DNA of 64,000 bases, taken from Limnospira fusiformis SAG 85.79 (GTDB taxonomy: Bacteria > Cyanobacteriota > Cyanobacteriia > Cyanobacteriales > Microcoleaceae). The notes under the pieces are model-generated. The model saw nothing but the letters and a program-made list of their open reading frames with translations. It made no database searches and was not told the origin of the DNA. Below, in pieces: positions 6,457 through 30,698 of the stretch. The translations under genes were made by a program, and so were the position numbers. Every line of letters begins with the position of its first letter. Positions within the stretch are counted from its first letter, which is position 1. The DNA is taken from NCBI RefSeq assembly GCF_012516315.1, contig NZ_CP051185.1, positions 951,459-1,015,458 of the forward strand, written 5' to 3'.

Positions 6457-6822
6457 TTAGGTGTTCGGTTGTAGGGTATTTTTGCCCAGGGAAATCACTA
6501 ATTGAATTAGGCGAGATATATGGGTGGGTTTAGCGATCGCCCAAATATTAATGCTCACACAAACCGCGGCCAAAAATAACAGAATAAATGTGGGAGCCAT
6601 CACCACACCGATCGCAAACCAAGTCCAAACATGAGCCACTAGAACCCCAGCATATAAACTGGCAAATCCCACCATCAATAACATTTGCTGCTGAGAACGT
6701 CCCACCGCTGTAAAAATCATCGTTTGCAGAGTCGCGATTAAATTCATGGGGACTAAGAAGGCGCAAATCATCCCACAATTAGCGCGGGAAAATTCGGCGA
6801 TACTATTGACATCTAAAATCAT
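6457..6822 (-). CDS. Small integral membrane protein of unknown function, 121 aa
   Basis: Three to four hydrophobic segments are visible: about residues 16-40 (GMICAFLVPMNLIATLQTMIF), 46-65 (MLLMVGFASLYAGVLVAHVW) and 68-95 (FAIGVVMAPTFILLFLAAVCVSINIW). The C-terminal 25 residues are basic and polar and likely cytoplasmic. I do not recognise a family, and no catalytic motif is visible. It is followed upstream on the same strand by a 40-codon gene with a single membrane segment, so both could be transcribed together. Confidence 0.65.
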   Translation of the reverse strand: MILDVNSIAEFSRANCGMICAFLVPMNLIATLQTMIFTAVGRSQQQMLLMVGFASLYAGVLVAHVWTWFAIGVVMAPTFILLFLAAVCVSINIWAIAKPTHISRLIQLVISLGKNTLQPNT

Positions 6823-6895
6823 GGTGTTTTATAATGGTAGAATTTCCTAAAGTGTAGCTGAGTTTTCCCAGGAAATACTGAATCTTTGCCAAAAT

Positions 6896-7018
6896 TTAAT
6901 CATCTTTTTTCCGTAGGGCTGTTGTCCAAAAATTCGTGAACATCATCAGCATCGCACCTAAAAAAATTATCCCAGCTAATCCCGCTGCGATCGCAGTTTC
7001 CCAATCAATGTTTTCCAT
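6896..7018 (-). CDS. 40-residue single-span membrane protein
   Basis: ATG at 7018 to TAA at 6896 encodes 40 residues: an acidic start (MENIDWETA), a hydrophobic span of about 20 residues (IAAGLAGIIFLGAMLMMF) and a short tail ending RKKDD. The size and layout resemble the tiny accessory subunits of thylakoid complexes, but it does not match PsbM, PsbX, PsbY, PetM, PetN or PsaM as I know them. No clear Shine-Dalgarno sequence precedes the ATG. It sits between two genes with no other explanation for the open frame. Function is unknown. Confidence 0.4.
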   Translation of the reverse strand: MENIDWETAIAAGLAGIIFLGAMLMMFTNFWTTALRKKDD

Positions 7019-7152
7019 AGAATGAATATCATGCTATCCGTCTAACCCACACCTTAGCACAAATACCCACCGCCAGAGAACGGGTAATCACCGACCCCCT
7101 AGATTCTGTAACATATCTTAATATAGTAAACAGCAACACCTGAAGGACAGAT

Positions 7153-8634
7153 ATGGCTACAGAAAATAAAAAAGCACCTTGGGACATCAATCGGTTTGTA
7201 AAAACCCTCAACTATTTTGGCGTAATTCCGTTTCTAGGTAGTTGTCGGTGGCTACAGAAGCTATTTGGGGGGGAAGCCAAGCCACCGAGTCCCCCCTCTG
7301 AAGTCGTCCTAGTGGTCGGTGCGACGGGGGGAGTAGGTAAGCGGGTGGTTAAACGCCTCCAGCAACAGGGTATCAAAGTAAGGGCCTTGGTTCGAGACCG
7401 GAAACGGGGACTAGAAATGCTGGGAAATAAGGTTGATATCATGGAGGCTGATTTAACCATCCCCGAAACCCTTACCCCCCAAGTCATGCAGGACGTGACG
7501 GCAATTATTTGTTGTTCAGGAACCCGAGTCCAACCCGTAGAAGGGGATACCCCCACCCGCGAAAAATACTATCAAGGGGTTAAATTTTATATGCCGGAGG
7601 TGGTTGATATTCCCGAATTGGTGGAATATAAAGGCATTCAAAATCTGATTAATGCTACCCCTAATACCTTGCGAAATTCTGGTCAAAAAATTCTGTTTGA
7701 TTTTACCAAGCCAGACGCTGAACTAAAGGCGACTTGGGGGGCTTTAGATGATGTGGTGATGGGGGGAGTTAGTGAAAGTTCCCTGCGACTAATTGGGGAT
7801 GCTGCTTTATTTACGGGCAATGTTTCGACGGCTAATTCTGGGGGGTTTGTCTCTGTCAGAACTCGGAATTTTGAACCGCCTTTAGATTTATCGGAGTTTG
7901 CGGGAATTGAACTGCGGGTGAAAGGAGATGGCAAGCGTTATAAGTTTATTGCCCGCTGTGATGAAAAGTGGGATAGTATTGGTTATTGCTATTCCTTTGA
8001 TACGGTTTATAATATTCCCATGACTATCAGGATTCCTTTTGAACAATTGATTCCTGTGTTTCGTGCCAAAACCCTTAAAGATAATCCCGGGTTTAACTCA
8101 AAATCGGTCTATGCGTTTCAATTGATGCTGAGTAAGTTTGAATATGATGGGGAGTTAAACCCTAAGTTTGAAGCGGGTATGTTTCAACTGCAAATTGAAT
8201 CGATTAAAGCCTACGGAAATGCGGCTAAACCTCGCCTGGTGATGGTGAGTTCTGCGGGTGTCACTCGTCCGGGAAAACCAGGATTAAATTTAGACGAAGA
8301 ACCTCCGGCGGTGCGAATGAATGACCAATTGGGAGGTATTTTAACCTGGAAATTGCGAGGGGAAAATGTAGTGCGATCGAGTAATATTCCCTATACGATT
8401 ATTCGCCCCTGTGCTATGACGGAAGAACCTGGCGGCGAGGCTTTGATGTTCGACCAAGGAGATACTATTAAGGGGAAAGTCAGTCGAGAGGATATTGCGG
8501 AACTCTGTATTAAGGCATTAAATCAACCATCTGCTACTAATGTTACTGTGGAGGTGAAGGCTTTGGCTAATGGCGATCGCTCTCCCCACTCGGCACCGGA
8601 GTCGGGGTTATTTGCGACTCTCCAACCTGATTAA
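7153..8634 (+). CDS. Atypical SDR with inserted CIA30 domain (HCF173-like)
   Basis: The 493 residues have an NAD(P)-binding Rossmann start, VLVVGATGGVGKRV at about 52-65. An inserted CIA30-type beta-sandwich runs from about 175 to 350, starting ILFDFTKPDAELKATWGALDD and including DVVMGGVSESS. The Rossmann C-terminal half follows (LVMVSSAGVTRPGKPG, PYTIIRPCAMTEEPGG). An SDR interrupted by CIA30 is the architecture of plant HCF173, which promotes psbA translation and photosystem II assembly, and of its cyanobacterial relatives. AAGGA lies seven bases before the ATG. The last codons and the terminator hairpin form one copy of a 108-bp direct repeat that recurs beyond the restriction cassette. 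A role in photosystem assembly is inferred from architecture only. Confidence 0.8.
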   Translation: MATENKKAPWDINRFVKTLNYFGVIPFLGSCRWLQKLFGGEAKPPSPPSEVVLVVGATGGVGKRVVKRLQQQGIKVRALVRDRKRGLEMLGNKVDIMEADLTIPETLTPQVMQDVTAIICCSGTRVQPVEGDTPTREKYYQGVKFYMPEVVDIPELVEYKGIQNLINATPNTLRNSGQKILFDFTKPDAELKATWGALDDVVMGGVSESSLRLIGDAALFTGNVSTANSGGFVSVRTRNFEPPLDLSEFAGIELRVKGDGKRYKFIARCDEKWDSIGYCYSFDTVYNIPMTIRIPFEQLIPVFRAKTLKDNPGFNSKSVYAFQLMLSKFEYDGELNPKFEAGMFQLQIESIKAYGNAAKPRLVMVSSAGVTRPGKPGLNLDEEPPAVRMNDQLGGILTWKLRGENVVRSSNIPYTIIRPCAMTEEPGGEALMFDQGDTIKGKVSREDIAELCIKALNQPSATNVTVEVKALANGDRSPHSAPESGLFATLQPD

Positions 8635-8680
8635 ATATTACCTTACTTAAAGTAGTGAAAGCGGGCGATAATGCCCGCTA
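8573..8680 (+). repeat. Direct repeat, copy A (3' end of the HCF173-like gene plus terminator)
   Basis: These 108 bases match 10615-10722 with one difference (G at 8601, A at 10643). They hold the last 20 or so codons of the upstream gene, its stop codon and the hairpin. The pair brackets the whole restriction-modification cassette. Confidence 0.95.
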
Positions 8681-8685
8681 TTTTA
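8661..8685 (+). terminator. Probable terminator of the HCF173-like gene
   Basis: Inverted repeat GCGGGC, loop GATAAT, GCCCGC, followed by TATTTTA. It lies 27 bases after the stop codon. The same hairpin recurs at 10703-10720 in the second copy of the direct repeat. Confidence 0.6.
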
Positions 8686-8738
8686 TGAGTTAATCGGGTC
8701 AATCCTATATATACTGATATATGATGGGTAAACTGATA

Positions 8739-9761
8739 TTAAAAAAGCTGTAATTGCCGGGAATGAGGAAGAAGGGGGACTGATTCACCTAACATAACTT
8801 TTTGATGCAGTAAACTTAAATCCTGCTGATTAATCTTGTCTTCCATAAAGCGTAACGAAGAAGTCGCCACATATTCTAAATCTGTCTCAAAAGCCAACCA
8901 ATGGCGGCATTCCTGTTCAGCCACAAATCCCGTGGTATTAGAACCAGAAAATATATCAACGACTATATCTCCGGGGTCTGTTAAAAGTTGAATAAAAAAC
9001 TTAGGCAGTTGACTGGGAAAACGTGCAGGATGAGCTTTTAATCCCAAGGCTTTACATCCCCTGAGATATTGGCTATTGGAATCTGTATTAGGAATTTGCA
9101 AGAGATTACAAGGAATTGCACCGCCGTTATTTTTAGCAAAGGATTTGCTAATATCATGTCCAGATGGGCGCTTTTTGGCATTATAAAACTTGTCAGGATC
9201 AGCCAGCAGTTTTTGCATTCTGGGGCTATAATCAGTCAATACTTTAGTTACATCGGATTTGGGAAATTCCGACTTACTAAACCACCAAACTGTATTGATT
9301 GAATCTTTGACCCTAATCTTGCGTTTGTTAACCCATTCTATAGGACTTGGTAACTTGGAAGGATTAAACCAATAAAAATCTTCAGCCAGGAAAAAACCAA
9401 TGCGATCGCAAAAATAAATAGGAACCCTAAAATTATACAAACTTCTAACAGGTTTTCCCTTTTCATAAGCACCACCTAAATCTAAAACAAAGCTGCCATC
9501 ATCTTTCAACTTTTGATAGACAACTCTGGCAAATTGGGCTAACCATTCAATATATTCGCTCTGGGTTTTATTTCCATATTCTTTTTGTCTTTGTAGTGCA
9601 AAAGGTGGACTGGTTAAGACTAGGTTAATGCTCTGATCAGGAAGCTGATTTAACAATTGCAAAGAATCCCCACAGAATGCAGCCCCCAGACCAGTATAAT
9701 AACTGGGTTTGCTATTGATTTTTGTGAGATCTAGTGGAAATTTAATCTGTTCTGTGGTCAT
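8739..9761 (-). CDS. PvuII-type DNA (cytosine-N4) methyltransferase
   Basis: Modifies DNA to protect it from the partner endonuclease. The 340 residues place catalytic motif IV, TSPPFAL, at residue 50 and the AdoMet-binding motif I, VVDIFSGSNTTGFVAE, near residue 270. That order is the beta class, and SPPF is typical of N4-cytosine enzymes. Blocks such as FYWFNPSKLPSPIEWVNKRK, RPSGHDI..SF and KAHPARFP closely match M.PvuII as I remember it, so the expected target is CAGCTG with methylation of the inner cytosine. It is divergent from the C gene across a C-box operator, exactly as in the PvuII system. The specificity is inferred from similarity. Confidence 0.93.
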   Translation of the reverse strand: MTTEQIKFPLDLTKINSKPSYYTGLGAAFCGDSLQLLNQLPDQSINLVLTSPPFALQRQKEYGNKTQSEYIEWLAQFARVVYQKLKDDGSFVLDLGGAYEKGKPVRSLYNFRVPIYFCDRIGFFLAEDFYWFNPSKLPSPIEWVNKRKIRVKDSINTVWWFSKSEFPKSDVTKVLTDYSPRMQKLLADPDKFYNAKKRPSGHDISKSFAKNNGGAIPCNLLQIPNTDSNSQYLRGCKALGLKAHPARFPSQLPKFFIQLLTDPGDIVVDIFSGSNTTGFVAEQECRHWLAFETDLEYVATSSLRFMEDKINQQDLSLLHQKVMLGESVPLLPHSRQLQLF

Positions 9762-9777
9762 GATTTATTAATTATGC

Positions 9778-9803
9778 TACTTATAGTCTGTAGATGTATG
9801 GTC
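9778..9803 (+). promoter_or_regulatory. C-box operator between M and C genes
   Basis: Two boxes, TACTTATAGTC (9778-9788) and GATGTATGGTC (9793-9803), are spaced by four bases. They resemble the C-protein operators of PvuII- and Esp1396I-type systems (consensus about GACTNNNAGTC twice). The second box overlaps the first in-frame ATG at 9794, so the C protein must start downstream. TATATTATATAGG at 9813-9825 offers a -10 element. Confidence 0.7.
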
Positions 9804-9844
9804 ATCACTACCTATATTATATAGGATATGTCAGCTATCAGAAT

Positions 9845-10057
9845 ATGCCATCTAGTGCTAGAAATATTTTTGCTAAAAGATTAAAGCAAATTCGTAAAAT
9901 GCGAGGACTTTCCCAGGAAAACCTAGCTGATATAGCAGGTTTACATAGAACCTATGTAGGCTCTGTGGAACGTGGGGAACGTAATGTGTCAATTGACAAT
10001 ATGGAACGTCTAGCTAAGGCGCTTGATGTTGAAATTACTGAACTTCTGAGGGAATAG
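9845..10057 (+). CDS. Controller protein of the restriction-modification system (C.PvuII-like)
   Basis: A 70-residue helix-turn-helix protein of the XRE/C-protein type: [20 protein letters not shown], then [20 protein letters not shown] and [14 protein letters not shown] proteins bind C-boxes, activate their own and the endonuclease gene, and so delay restriction until methylation is complete. The frame is open from an ATG at 9794, but that codon lies within the operator, so I choose the ATG at 9845 (MPSSARNIF). The gene precedes the endonuclease by five bases, giving a C-R operon. Dimerisation and the operator interaction are known for the family and inferred here. Confidence 0.9.
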
Positions 10058-10062
10058 TAACT

Positions 10063-10551
10063 ATGAAATCTCATCCAGACAAAGCTATTCTTGACGAGTT
10101 ATTTCCATATATTCAGCAGTATCAAGCACTAGCTACTAAACACGGAATTAATGATATTTTTCAAGATAATGGAGGTAAACTTTTACAGGTAATTTTGGTA
10201 ACTGGATTACAAATAATACCTGGAAGGGAGGGGAATGATGCTAAAGATGCTGATGGTAATGAATTTGAACTCAAGTCAGTTAATATCGCTCTAACTAAGA
10301 GTTTTTCTACTCATCACCACATTAACCCGCGCATAATTGATAAATATAGACAAGTAGACTGGATCTTTGCAGTATACCGGGGAATCAACTTGTTGTATAT
10401 TTATAAACTTACATCCTCAGACTTAGAATATTTTTATAGGAAGTGGGAAGAACAGTGGTACAGTAAAGGTGGAAAAGATATTAACAATCCCAAAATCCCA
10501 TTAAAGTACGTTATTGAACATGGACAGCTATTATACTCTATTGACAGTTAG
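10063..10551 (+). CDS. PvuII-type restriction endonuclease
   Basis: The 162 residues are unmistakably a relative of R.PvuII (157 aa): [35 protein letters not shown] and KDINNPKIP all agree with what I recall. The catalytic residues Asp59, Glu69 and Lys71 correspond to Asp58, Glu68 and Lys70 of R.PvuII, and the His-rich recognition segment is kept. It should cut CAGCTG as a dimer, leaving blunt ends. All three genes of the cassette look intact, so the system is probably active. CAGCTG occurs in the window (for example at 55386), so the site is not absent from the chromosome and methylation is needed. Confidence 0.94.
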
Positions 10552-10614
10552 GGGCTATTTTTGATAAGATTAACCCAGCAATGTATGGACTGATAAAACC
10601 TCAGAAAATTGTCA

Positions 10615-10722
10615 GCGATCGCTCTCCCCACTCGGCACCGGAATCGGGGTTATTTGCGACTCTCCAACCTGATTAAATATTACCTTACTTAAAGTAGTGA
10701 AAGCGGGCGATAATGCCCGCTA
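10615..10722 (+). repeat. Direct repeat, copy B
   Basis: Second copy of the 108-bp segment at 8573-8680 (107 of 108 identical). It carries the end of the HCF173-like reading frame out of context, followed by the same hairpin, and marks the right edge of the restriction cassette. Confidence 0.95.
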
Positions 10723-10856
10723 ATTTATTATTTATGGAAACTGGGAAAATTAACCTGATATTAAAGAGTTATTCCCGGTTATGGTCTGCCCTAAAATTAG
10801 CCCTATTCCACCAAAAACCGGGTTTTAAAATTGTCACAATTCCAGCAAATTGGCAA

Positions 10857-16669: not shown

Positions 16670-17582
16670 GTAGGGGTCGAAAGGAAAGTCACCTTTCCCA
16701 ACTCCCATTCAAAACCGTGCTTGATACTTTCACATCACACGGCTCCTGATGTGGATACCCTATTTTGTCAGTAGGAACAGGGTTACTACCCCCTGCTTTA
16801 TGACTTCAACTTTAGGAGCTATATACACCACGTAGTCTTTAAACTCGCTCACGGTCGTAAGCACTCTTACATCATCGCAGTCTCTATATCCACACCGTGA
16901 CTAGTGGGCATATCCCAACCATTACAGTTAGGCATTAGCTTTCAGTCACATCCTTTCCCCTTATGGGCATACGCTTACACTTTTCACTACTCCAGTGAGT
17001 AATATTGCTCACTTTCTTATATGGAGAGCCTAACAGGGGTTTCAACGTTCCGTATATATGGGCATTCCATCTTTAGATTTGTCCTATCCACCGGGGTACT
17101 TTTAAAGGTCTGTGAAGATGGCTAGTCAAGTCCTCTTCTTTTCCCCTTGTTCTTTTGAACACAGCGTGTCAACCTATTTCGCTACCTCGATATTACGATG
17201 GTTCAAGCCAGACATTCGGTTTCCCTAATCATGGATGGTTGGCAGTGGTCGGATTTTGGGAATGGGTTTTCCCTCACGCCTTCCGTTCCCCGCTTCAATC
17301 CCAGATTTGTGATTTCTGAAACTGGGGGTGGCTATCGCCTTTACTCTTTCCCATAATCACCCCAAGTGGGTTGAAATACTCCTCCTAAGTATACTTGGAC
17401 GGTATTTTGTGATTTCTTAAAATGGGATTGACCTTGAGTTCCCTGCCTTGCTTAGTGCAACAACTCACTAAACGTCGGGACATATATACAGTTAAGGGGT
17501 TAGACTGGTTGAAGGTCTAATTTTCCCTCTAGGAGGTTATTTCAGGCATTGCAGCCTTATTTCACTCCTAAACGTCTCGCAC
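16670..17582 (-). ncRNA. ORF-less group II intron, 913 nt
   Basis: On the minus strand the element starts GTGCGAG at 17582. Domain V is at 16712-16745: 34 nt starting GAGCC, with the AGC triad, a GAAA tetraloop and a two-base bulge, paired throughout. Domain VI follows, with a GGAAAG/CTTTCC stem and an A eight bases from the 3' end as candidate branch point, and the end is CCCCTAC at 16670. The seven bases before the 5' splice site (ATAGTCA) can pair with TGATTAT at 17353-17359, a good EBS1 candidate. There is no reverse transcriptase or maturase frame, so splicing would need a protein supplied in trans. It sits in the leader of the His-rich gene in sense orientation. Confidence 0.85.
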
Positions 17583-21357: not shown

Positions 21358-21603
21358 TGTTGCGTCTGTTCTGATTGCTCGTAACGTTTGCTTCGCCAAG
21401 GTTCAGAGTCGGTACTTTCCAAATCGCACTGTCTTAACCCCTTAGGACTGTTTAACGATTTGGTTCTAGTGCCTGGAACTAGCACGCATTCCAGGGTAGG
21501 AACTTTAACTCTTGCTCTGAACGTAGCCAGTTAAGGCTTAAGCTGGTCAGCTACCTGAAAGCGGGGGGCACGAAGCCCCCGTGCTTCAGCCGGGGGTGCT
21601 GAC
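21358..21603 (-). ncRNA. Omega-RNA scaffold upstream of iscB
   Basis: The segment directly 5' of iscB is about 90% identical to 30480-30698, with a common sharp end at 21603. It is rich in inverted repeats, including GGGGGC/GCCCCC around a short loop and ACTAGAACC/GGTTCTAGT-like arms. In IscB systems the guide is the stretch immediately 5' of the scaffold; here that is the reverse complement of 21604-21620 or so, which is the 3' flank of the small gene. Coordinates of the RNA ends are approximate on the iscB side. Confidence 0.8.
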
Positions 21604-30326: not shown

Positions 30327-30698
30327 GTAAAACTCCTGGGAGGGTTGGAAGCTCCGTGATTGATCACGGAGAGGAAAACCGACTCAAGCGGCTGACCGCC
30401 GCCAGCACCCCCTTGCGGGGTGGAGGGGTATGGTTGCCCCTCCATGGAGCTATGGTTGGCTCCGACTCCCTTGCGGGGTAATGTTTGCTTCGCCAATGTT
30501 CAGAGTCGGTACTATCCAAATCGCACGTCCTTAACCCCTTAGAGATGTTTAACGATTCGGTTCTAGAGCCTGGAACTAGCACGCATTCCAGGGTAGGAAC
30601 TTTAACTCTTGCTCTGAACGGAGCCAGTTAAGGCTTAAGCTGGTCAGCTACCTGAAAGGGGGGCACGAAGCCCCCGTGCTTCAGCCGGGGGTGCTGAC
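30327..30698 (-). mobile_element. Miniature IscB-less omega-RNA element, 372 bp
   Basis: Both ends match the iscB element at 20002-21603: the left end after TCAC (30323-30326) with GTAAAACTCCTGGGAG, and the right end ending GGGGGTGCTGAC at 30698. The left hairpin is a perfect CTCCGTGAT, TG, ATCACGGAG (30352-30371); its bases differ from the first copy yet still pair. The whole iscB frame is missing, with about 110 bases of unrelated sequence in its place. This is a non-autonomous derivative whose main content is an omega-RNA. Confidence 0.85.
30480..30698 (-). ncRNA. Stand-alone omega-RNA (no iscB)
   Basis: About 90% identical to the omega-RNA upstream of iscB over 220 bases, with the hairpin arms kept, including GGGGGC/GCCCCC. 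Its boundary at 30698 is followed by different flanking sequence, so the putative guide differs. The scaffold would be expected to work in trans with the IscB encoded at 20086-21357. Expression is not shown by sequence. Confidence 0.75.

Follow-up and report, generated by a model that had tools for sequence, protein, structure and literature searches.

How does a bare set of restriction-modification (R-M) genes come to stand directly behind a host gene, with the end of that gene repeated on its far side? The question is raised by a 64,000-nucleotide stretch of the Limnospira fusiformis SAG 85.79 chromosome (hereafter the window), in which a PvuII-type cassette of methyltransferase (M), controller (C) and restriction endonuclease (R) genes lies between two copies of the 3′ end of an HCF173-like gene. 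The features concerned are listed here, with G001 denoting a sister genome of the same genus and a different species, the one relative used for the empty-site comparison.

7153..8634, + strand: host gene of 493 aa, NAD(P)-binding and CIA30, HCF173-like, intact, with its 3′ end as the target of the duplication
8573..8680, + strand: repeat copy 1, the final 62 bp of the host ORF (8573-8634) and 46 bp downstream including the terminator; 107/108 identical to copy 2
8573..8580: HIP1 octamer GCGATCGC, left border of copy 1
8660..8679, + strand: terminator hairpin AGCGGGCGATAATGCCCGCT with T-rich tail, copy 1
8681..10614: inserted unit of 1,934 bp, absent from G001; M-C-R and about 60 bp at either end
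8739..9761, − strand: M, predicted N4-cytosine DNA methyltransferase of M.PvuII type, 340 aa (PDB 1boo, E 2e-146; PF01555; TSPPF motif)
9776..9807: operator-like conserved block in the M-C intergene, C-box region, GCTACTTATAGTCTGTAGA...GTCATCA (alignment of 17 loci including Proteus hauseri)
9845..10057, + strand: C, predicted HTH controller protein, 70 aa from the ATG at 9845 (PF01381, 2e-17)
10063..10551, + strand: R, predicted PvuII-type restriction endonuclease, 162 aa (PF09225, 2e-62; solved PvuII structures, E ~1e-73)
10615..10722, + strand: repeat copy 2, bearing the single derived base (G to A) and running on into host DNA collinear with G001
10615..10622: HIP1 octamer GCGATCGC, at the left edge of copy 2, where the R end of the cassette meets host DNA
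10702..10721, + strand: terminator hairpin, copy 2, 3′ of the R gene

From the pairwise comparison within the window, it is evident that the original prediction of 108-base direct repeats with 107 identities is exact to the base (8573-8680 and 10615-10722, one mismatch). The match continues, less closely, up to 120 bp (116/120, 8573-8692 and 10615-10734). A search of the whole 6.42-Mb host genome yielded exactly two occurrences of this 120-bp sequence, meaning that it is not a dispersed repeat. Nor is the similarity a chance one, since among 82 loci of the PvuII-type cassette family from many phyla the local score between left and right flanks is 108 for the window, 47 for locus L059 and 38 for locus L054, while all remaining loci, and shuffles likewise, reach at most 17. 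The repeat also has the content that had been ascribed to it, the final codons of the HCF173-like gene together with its terminator, in the form of 62 bp of ORF end, the stop and the hairpin at 8660-8679 (hairpin z −3.6 on the + strand and −2.8 on the − strand). The host gene was said to be left intact with the cassette behind its terminator, and the 493-aa ORF is indeed whole, with an orthologue of equal length in G001. The outward-facing M (leftward) and R (rightward) genes each meet a copy of the terminator, and copying it on both sides thus spares the host gene and insulates the cassette.

The cassette itself bears out the claim of an intact M-C-R set between the repeats: the M (−), C (+) and R (+) ORFs are all whole and of the PvuII family, with catalytic motifs in place, and spacers of 58 bp (copy 1 to the M stop) and 63 bp (R stop to copy 2) complete the insert. 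Judged by the endonuclease and methyltransferase families, the C protein and the divergent M / C-R order, it is a PvuII-type type IIP R-M system, which would cut and methylate CAGCTG. It shares R, M, the divergent order and the conserved operator block with the plasmid-borne PvuII system of Proteus (PMC3695507), but differs from it in having non-overlapping C and R ORFs, a chromosomal location and a host gene-end duplication at its flanks. A check of GC content had been proposed as well, and gave 36.6% for the insert versus 45.7% for the window. The CAGCTG site occurs 51 times in the host and 76 times in the cassette-free sister G001; because it is rare throughout the family, this sister included, its rarity is no proof of PvuII activity, and for the same reason the idea of dating the cassette by avoidance of the site was rejected. 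With 51 CAGCTG and 8 GTCGAC sites in 6.4 Mb, the host genome is extremely poor in both, as are most family members, with or without a PvuII system.

A transposon or integrase island was considered and rejected. The transposase-type terminal repeat that the original prediction had named as counter-evidence was looked for, and the insert has no terminal inverted repeats (local score 16, P 0.18 on shuffles); its 1,934 bp hold only M, C and R, with no recombinase or transposase gene. No attC-like sequence was seen by eye at the ends of the window cassette. Three other PvuII-type M-C-R cassettes (L009, L010 and L016) do show, by eye, integron attC-like sequences at their ends, which suggests another route of travel for this cassette family.

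The state of the site before the insertion can be seen in G001. This genome aligns to both cassette flanks (89% and 93%), and the two alignments overlap by 119 bp, that is, by one repeat copy with no cassette; a homologue of M.PvuII is likewise absent from G001 (best match 27 bits). The expectation that a cassette-free relative would carry one copy is therefore borne out. Over about 130 kb of synteny between the host and G001 there are six clean host insertions. A long target overlap (111 bp) is seen at the R-M insertion alone; at the other five the flanks overlap by ≤3 bp or leave a gap of ≤21 bp. As to its age, there is 1 difference in 108 positions between the two copies, compared with 12 and 13 between the copies and G001 (Fisher P 0.003). 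The copies share states that are absent from G001, and the one base that separates them is derived in copy 2. These shared changes favour a duplication younger than the split between the host and G001, barring gene conversion; none of the outgroups of the genus keeps the site.

Insertion of R-M genes with a long target duplication was reportedly described by Nobusato et al. in 2000 and by Furuta et al. in 2010. Duplications of the order of 100 bp are documented for such insertions (PMC3874152; PMC3031569), and the cases share with ours bare R-M genes with no transposase, a direct repeat of that order and a relative with a one-copy empty site. With the target present twice here and once in the relative, and with a unit of bare R-M genes, the data support the window locus as a new instance of this known process, in agreement with what had been proposed for it. 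What may set the present case apart from earlier ones is that the duplicate holds a gene terminator and has one HIP1 edge, and that in the sister species a non-R-M defence cassette has left a footprint of this kind.

This latter cassette lies in G001 between a 119-bp pair (2110311 and 2116126) made of the 3′ end of a sigma-factor-like gene including its terminator. The insert encodes MkoA (E 8e-79) together with a weak match to MkoB and is thus Mokosh-like, and at this locus the host genome has one copy, an empty site. The process thus extends beyond R-M systems, to which the Mokosh-like cassette does not belong.

A further case was found in Stappia sp. BW2 (L054). The locus adjoins a RepC-like gene and, as we presume, probably belongs to a repABC plasmid. 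Its PvuII-type cassette (6689-8561) is bounded on both sides by a repeat of 38 identical bases (44 at 95%). This repeat coincides exactly with the upstream gene's terminator hairpin and T-run, and that genome has no other copy of it. Three relatives (L180, L182 and L183) have one copy each, with the flanks meeting there, and a fourth (L181) has a different gene at the same spot, GIY-YIG-like by eye. There are thus three clean before/after pairs, from two bacterial groups, in which a cassette stands behind a host gene with a terminator on both sides, and they bear on the way in which bare defence genes travel when no mobile element carries them. Locus L059 (6142-10267) was not counted as a target duplication, since hsdS-end repeats in a type I R-M locus may arise otherwise. 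The hsdS end is present there three times, with two of the copies around a PvuII-type cassette that has a C-R fusion ORF, and this is possibly the result of serial insertions.

The left border of each window repeat is a HIP1 octamer, and the borders of other repeats in the host genome were examined as well. The two-copy filter was applied within 29% of the genome (1.87 Mb), a sample that includes regions selected for methyltransferase matches (4.00-4.19 Mb, 4.44-4.49 Mb and three single stretches); the 108-bp repeat itself was checked genome-wide. Among the 26 two-copy repeats there are 13 short-range (<10 kb) direct pairs, and HIP1, scored when the octamer lies ≤4 bp from the border in both copies, is present at 9 of their 26 borders, compared with a background of 1.3-1.5% and with none of the 16 borders of the other direct pairs. 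The binomial P, for a test conceived after the first borders had been seen, is ~5e-12 at the genome rate of 1.07% and 4e-5 if the rate is taken as 3%; because some of the pairs share one site the independent events are fewer, about six, for which P is 1e-7. Some of the HIP1-bordered pairs are not insertions, one example being a cas1 fragment on the far side of a CRISPR array. Neither the Mokosh-like duplication in G001 nor that in Stappia has a HIP1 border, so the process can do without HIP1.

HIP1 has been tied to recombination before, on limited evidence (PMC4390886). The cases in that review, namely plasmid recombination in PCC 7002, excision, and insertion of SDR5 into HIP1, resemble ours in having HIP1 at recombination junctions; unlike them, HIP1 stands here at the edges of duplications around defence genes and at a type III R-M insertion. 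The latter is a 7.4-kb insert (G000:C1:4008921-4017394, L216) with a type III R-M system (MTase_III, E 1.6e-143) and an AbiLi-like ATPase. Its insertion point is exactly one HIP1 of the G001 empty site, and HIP1 is found at both ends of the insert. The repeat that flanks it (4008921 and 4017329) was rejected as a target duplication, since the sister already carries both copies.

Overall, we consider the window structure to be best, and probably correctly, explained by insertion of the cassette after the split, with the second junction made through HIP1 microhomology and with no transposase. The host lineage, once separated from the sister, would have gained the 1.93-kb PvuII-type M-C-R cassette of cyanobacterial type. 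One cassette end was joined right behind the HCF173-like gene's terminator. The R end met, in place of the next host base, the HIP1 octamer that lies 108 bp upstream, so that the last codons and terminator were copied again on the far side, as the single copy in the sister and the two copies here show. At this second junction HIP1 may have served as microhomology in template switching or break repair, and re-entry upstream of the break would duplicate the stretch between HIP1 and the break. A dedicated recombinase would not be involved, and other defence-type cassettes in the genus may take the same route. The duplication of a terminator may reflect selection, as insertions elsewhere break genes, and not targeting.

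The same footprint would result from a staggered break at the gene end with single strands of ~108 bases, followed by ligation of the cassette and filling of the gaps, HIP1 being a coincidence or a nick site. Duplications of the order of 100 bp are described for R-M systems (PMC3874152), and the Stappia and G001 cases, with no HIP1 at the border, speak for such a break; the excess of HIP1 borders in the host genome is left unexplained by it. We regard this course of events as a fair rival, though the less likely one here. Campbell-type integration of a circle that carried the cassette and one 108-bp gene-end piece, for example one excised through the repeats in a conspecific strain, would yield exactly this structure, and the near-identity of the copies allows a conspecific donor. 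It appears improbable: an earlier insertion with duplication would still be required, the host genome has no further copy of the repeat, and no circle was found. That the cassette and duplication are ancestral and were lost in the sister by recombination between the repeats, which would likewise leave a single copy there, is very improbable given the 1 versus 12-13 differences noted above (P 0.003), which would demand gene conversion.

If insertion with re-entry at HIP1 is correct, the link to HIP1 gives a concrete and testable role to a palindrome of long-debated function. Loss of the cassette by recombination between the copies is plausible. A more general version, in which the genus has a transposase-free entry route behind terminators for many defence cassettes (R-M types II and III, Mokosh and others) with HIP1 as the preferred microhomology for repair-fork re-entry, is tentative and seems doubtful to us; were it true, the overabundance of HIP1 would feed the turnover of the defence arsenal.

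Several other repeat-associated loci were observed. A PARIS-like insert (2413168; L103:13168-16292), with an AriA/PtuA-like ATPase and an AriB-like gene, lies within a 194-bp duplicate formed by the 3′ end of a TPR/protease gene, and both borders are HIP1; it was dropped as an empty-site case because the insert is present in the sister too. At L095:1332-3804 the last 68 bp of dnaA are duplicated downstream, with type I R-M remnants (HsdS and the HsdR C-terminus) and a HicA-like gene between the copies; the right flank of this repeat was not found in G001. At G000:C1:1727155-1729956, a 60-bp cas1-like piece ending in HIP1 is copied beyond an apparent CRISPR array. Within the window, Rfam also identifies two HEARO (HNH endonuclease-associated) RNAs (21381-21603 and 30478-30698, both on the − strand) and a piece of a group II intron (16670-16747, − strand).
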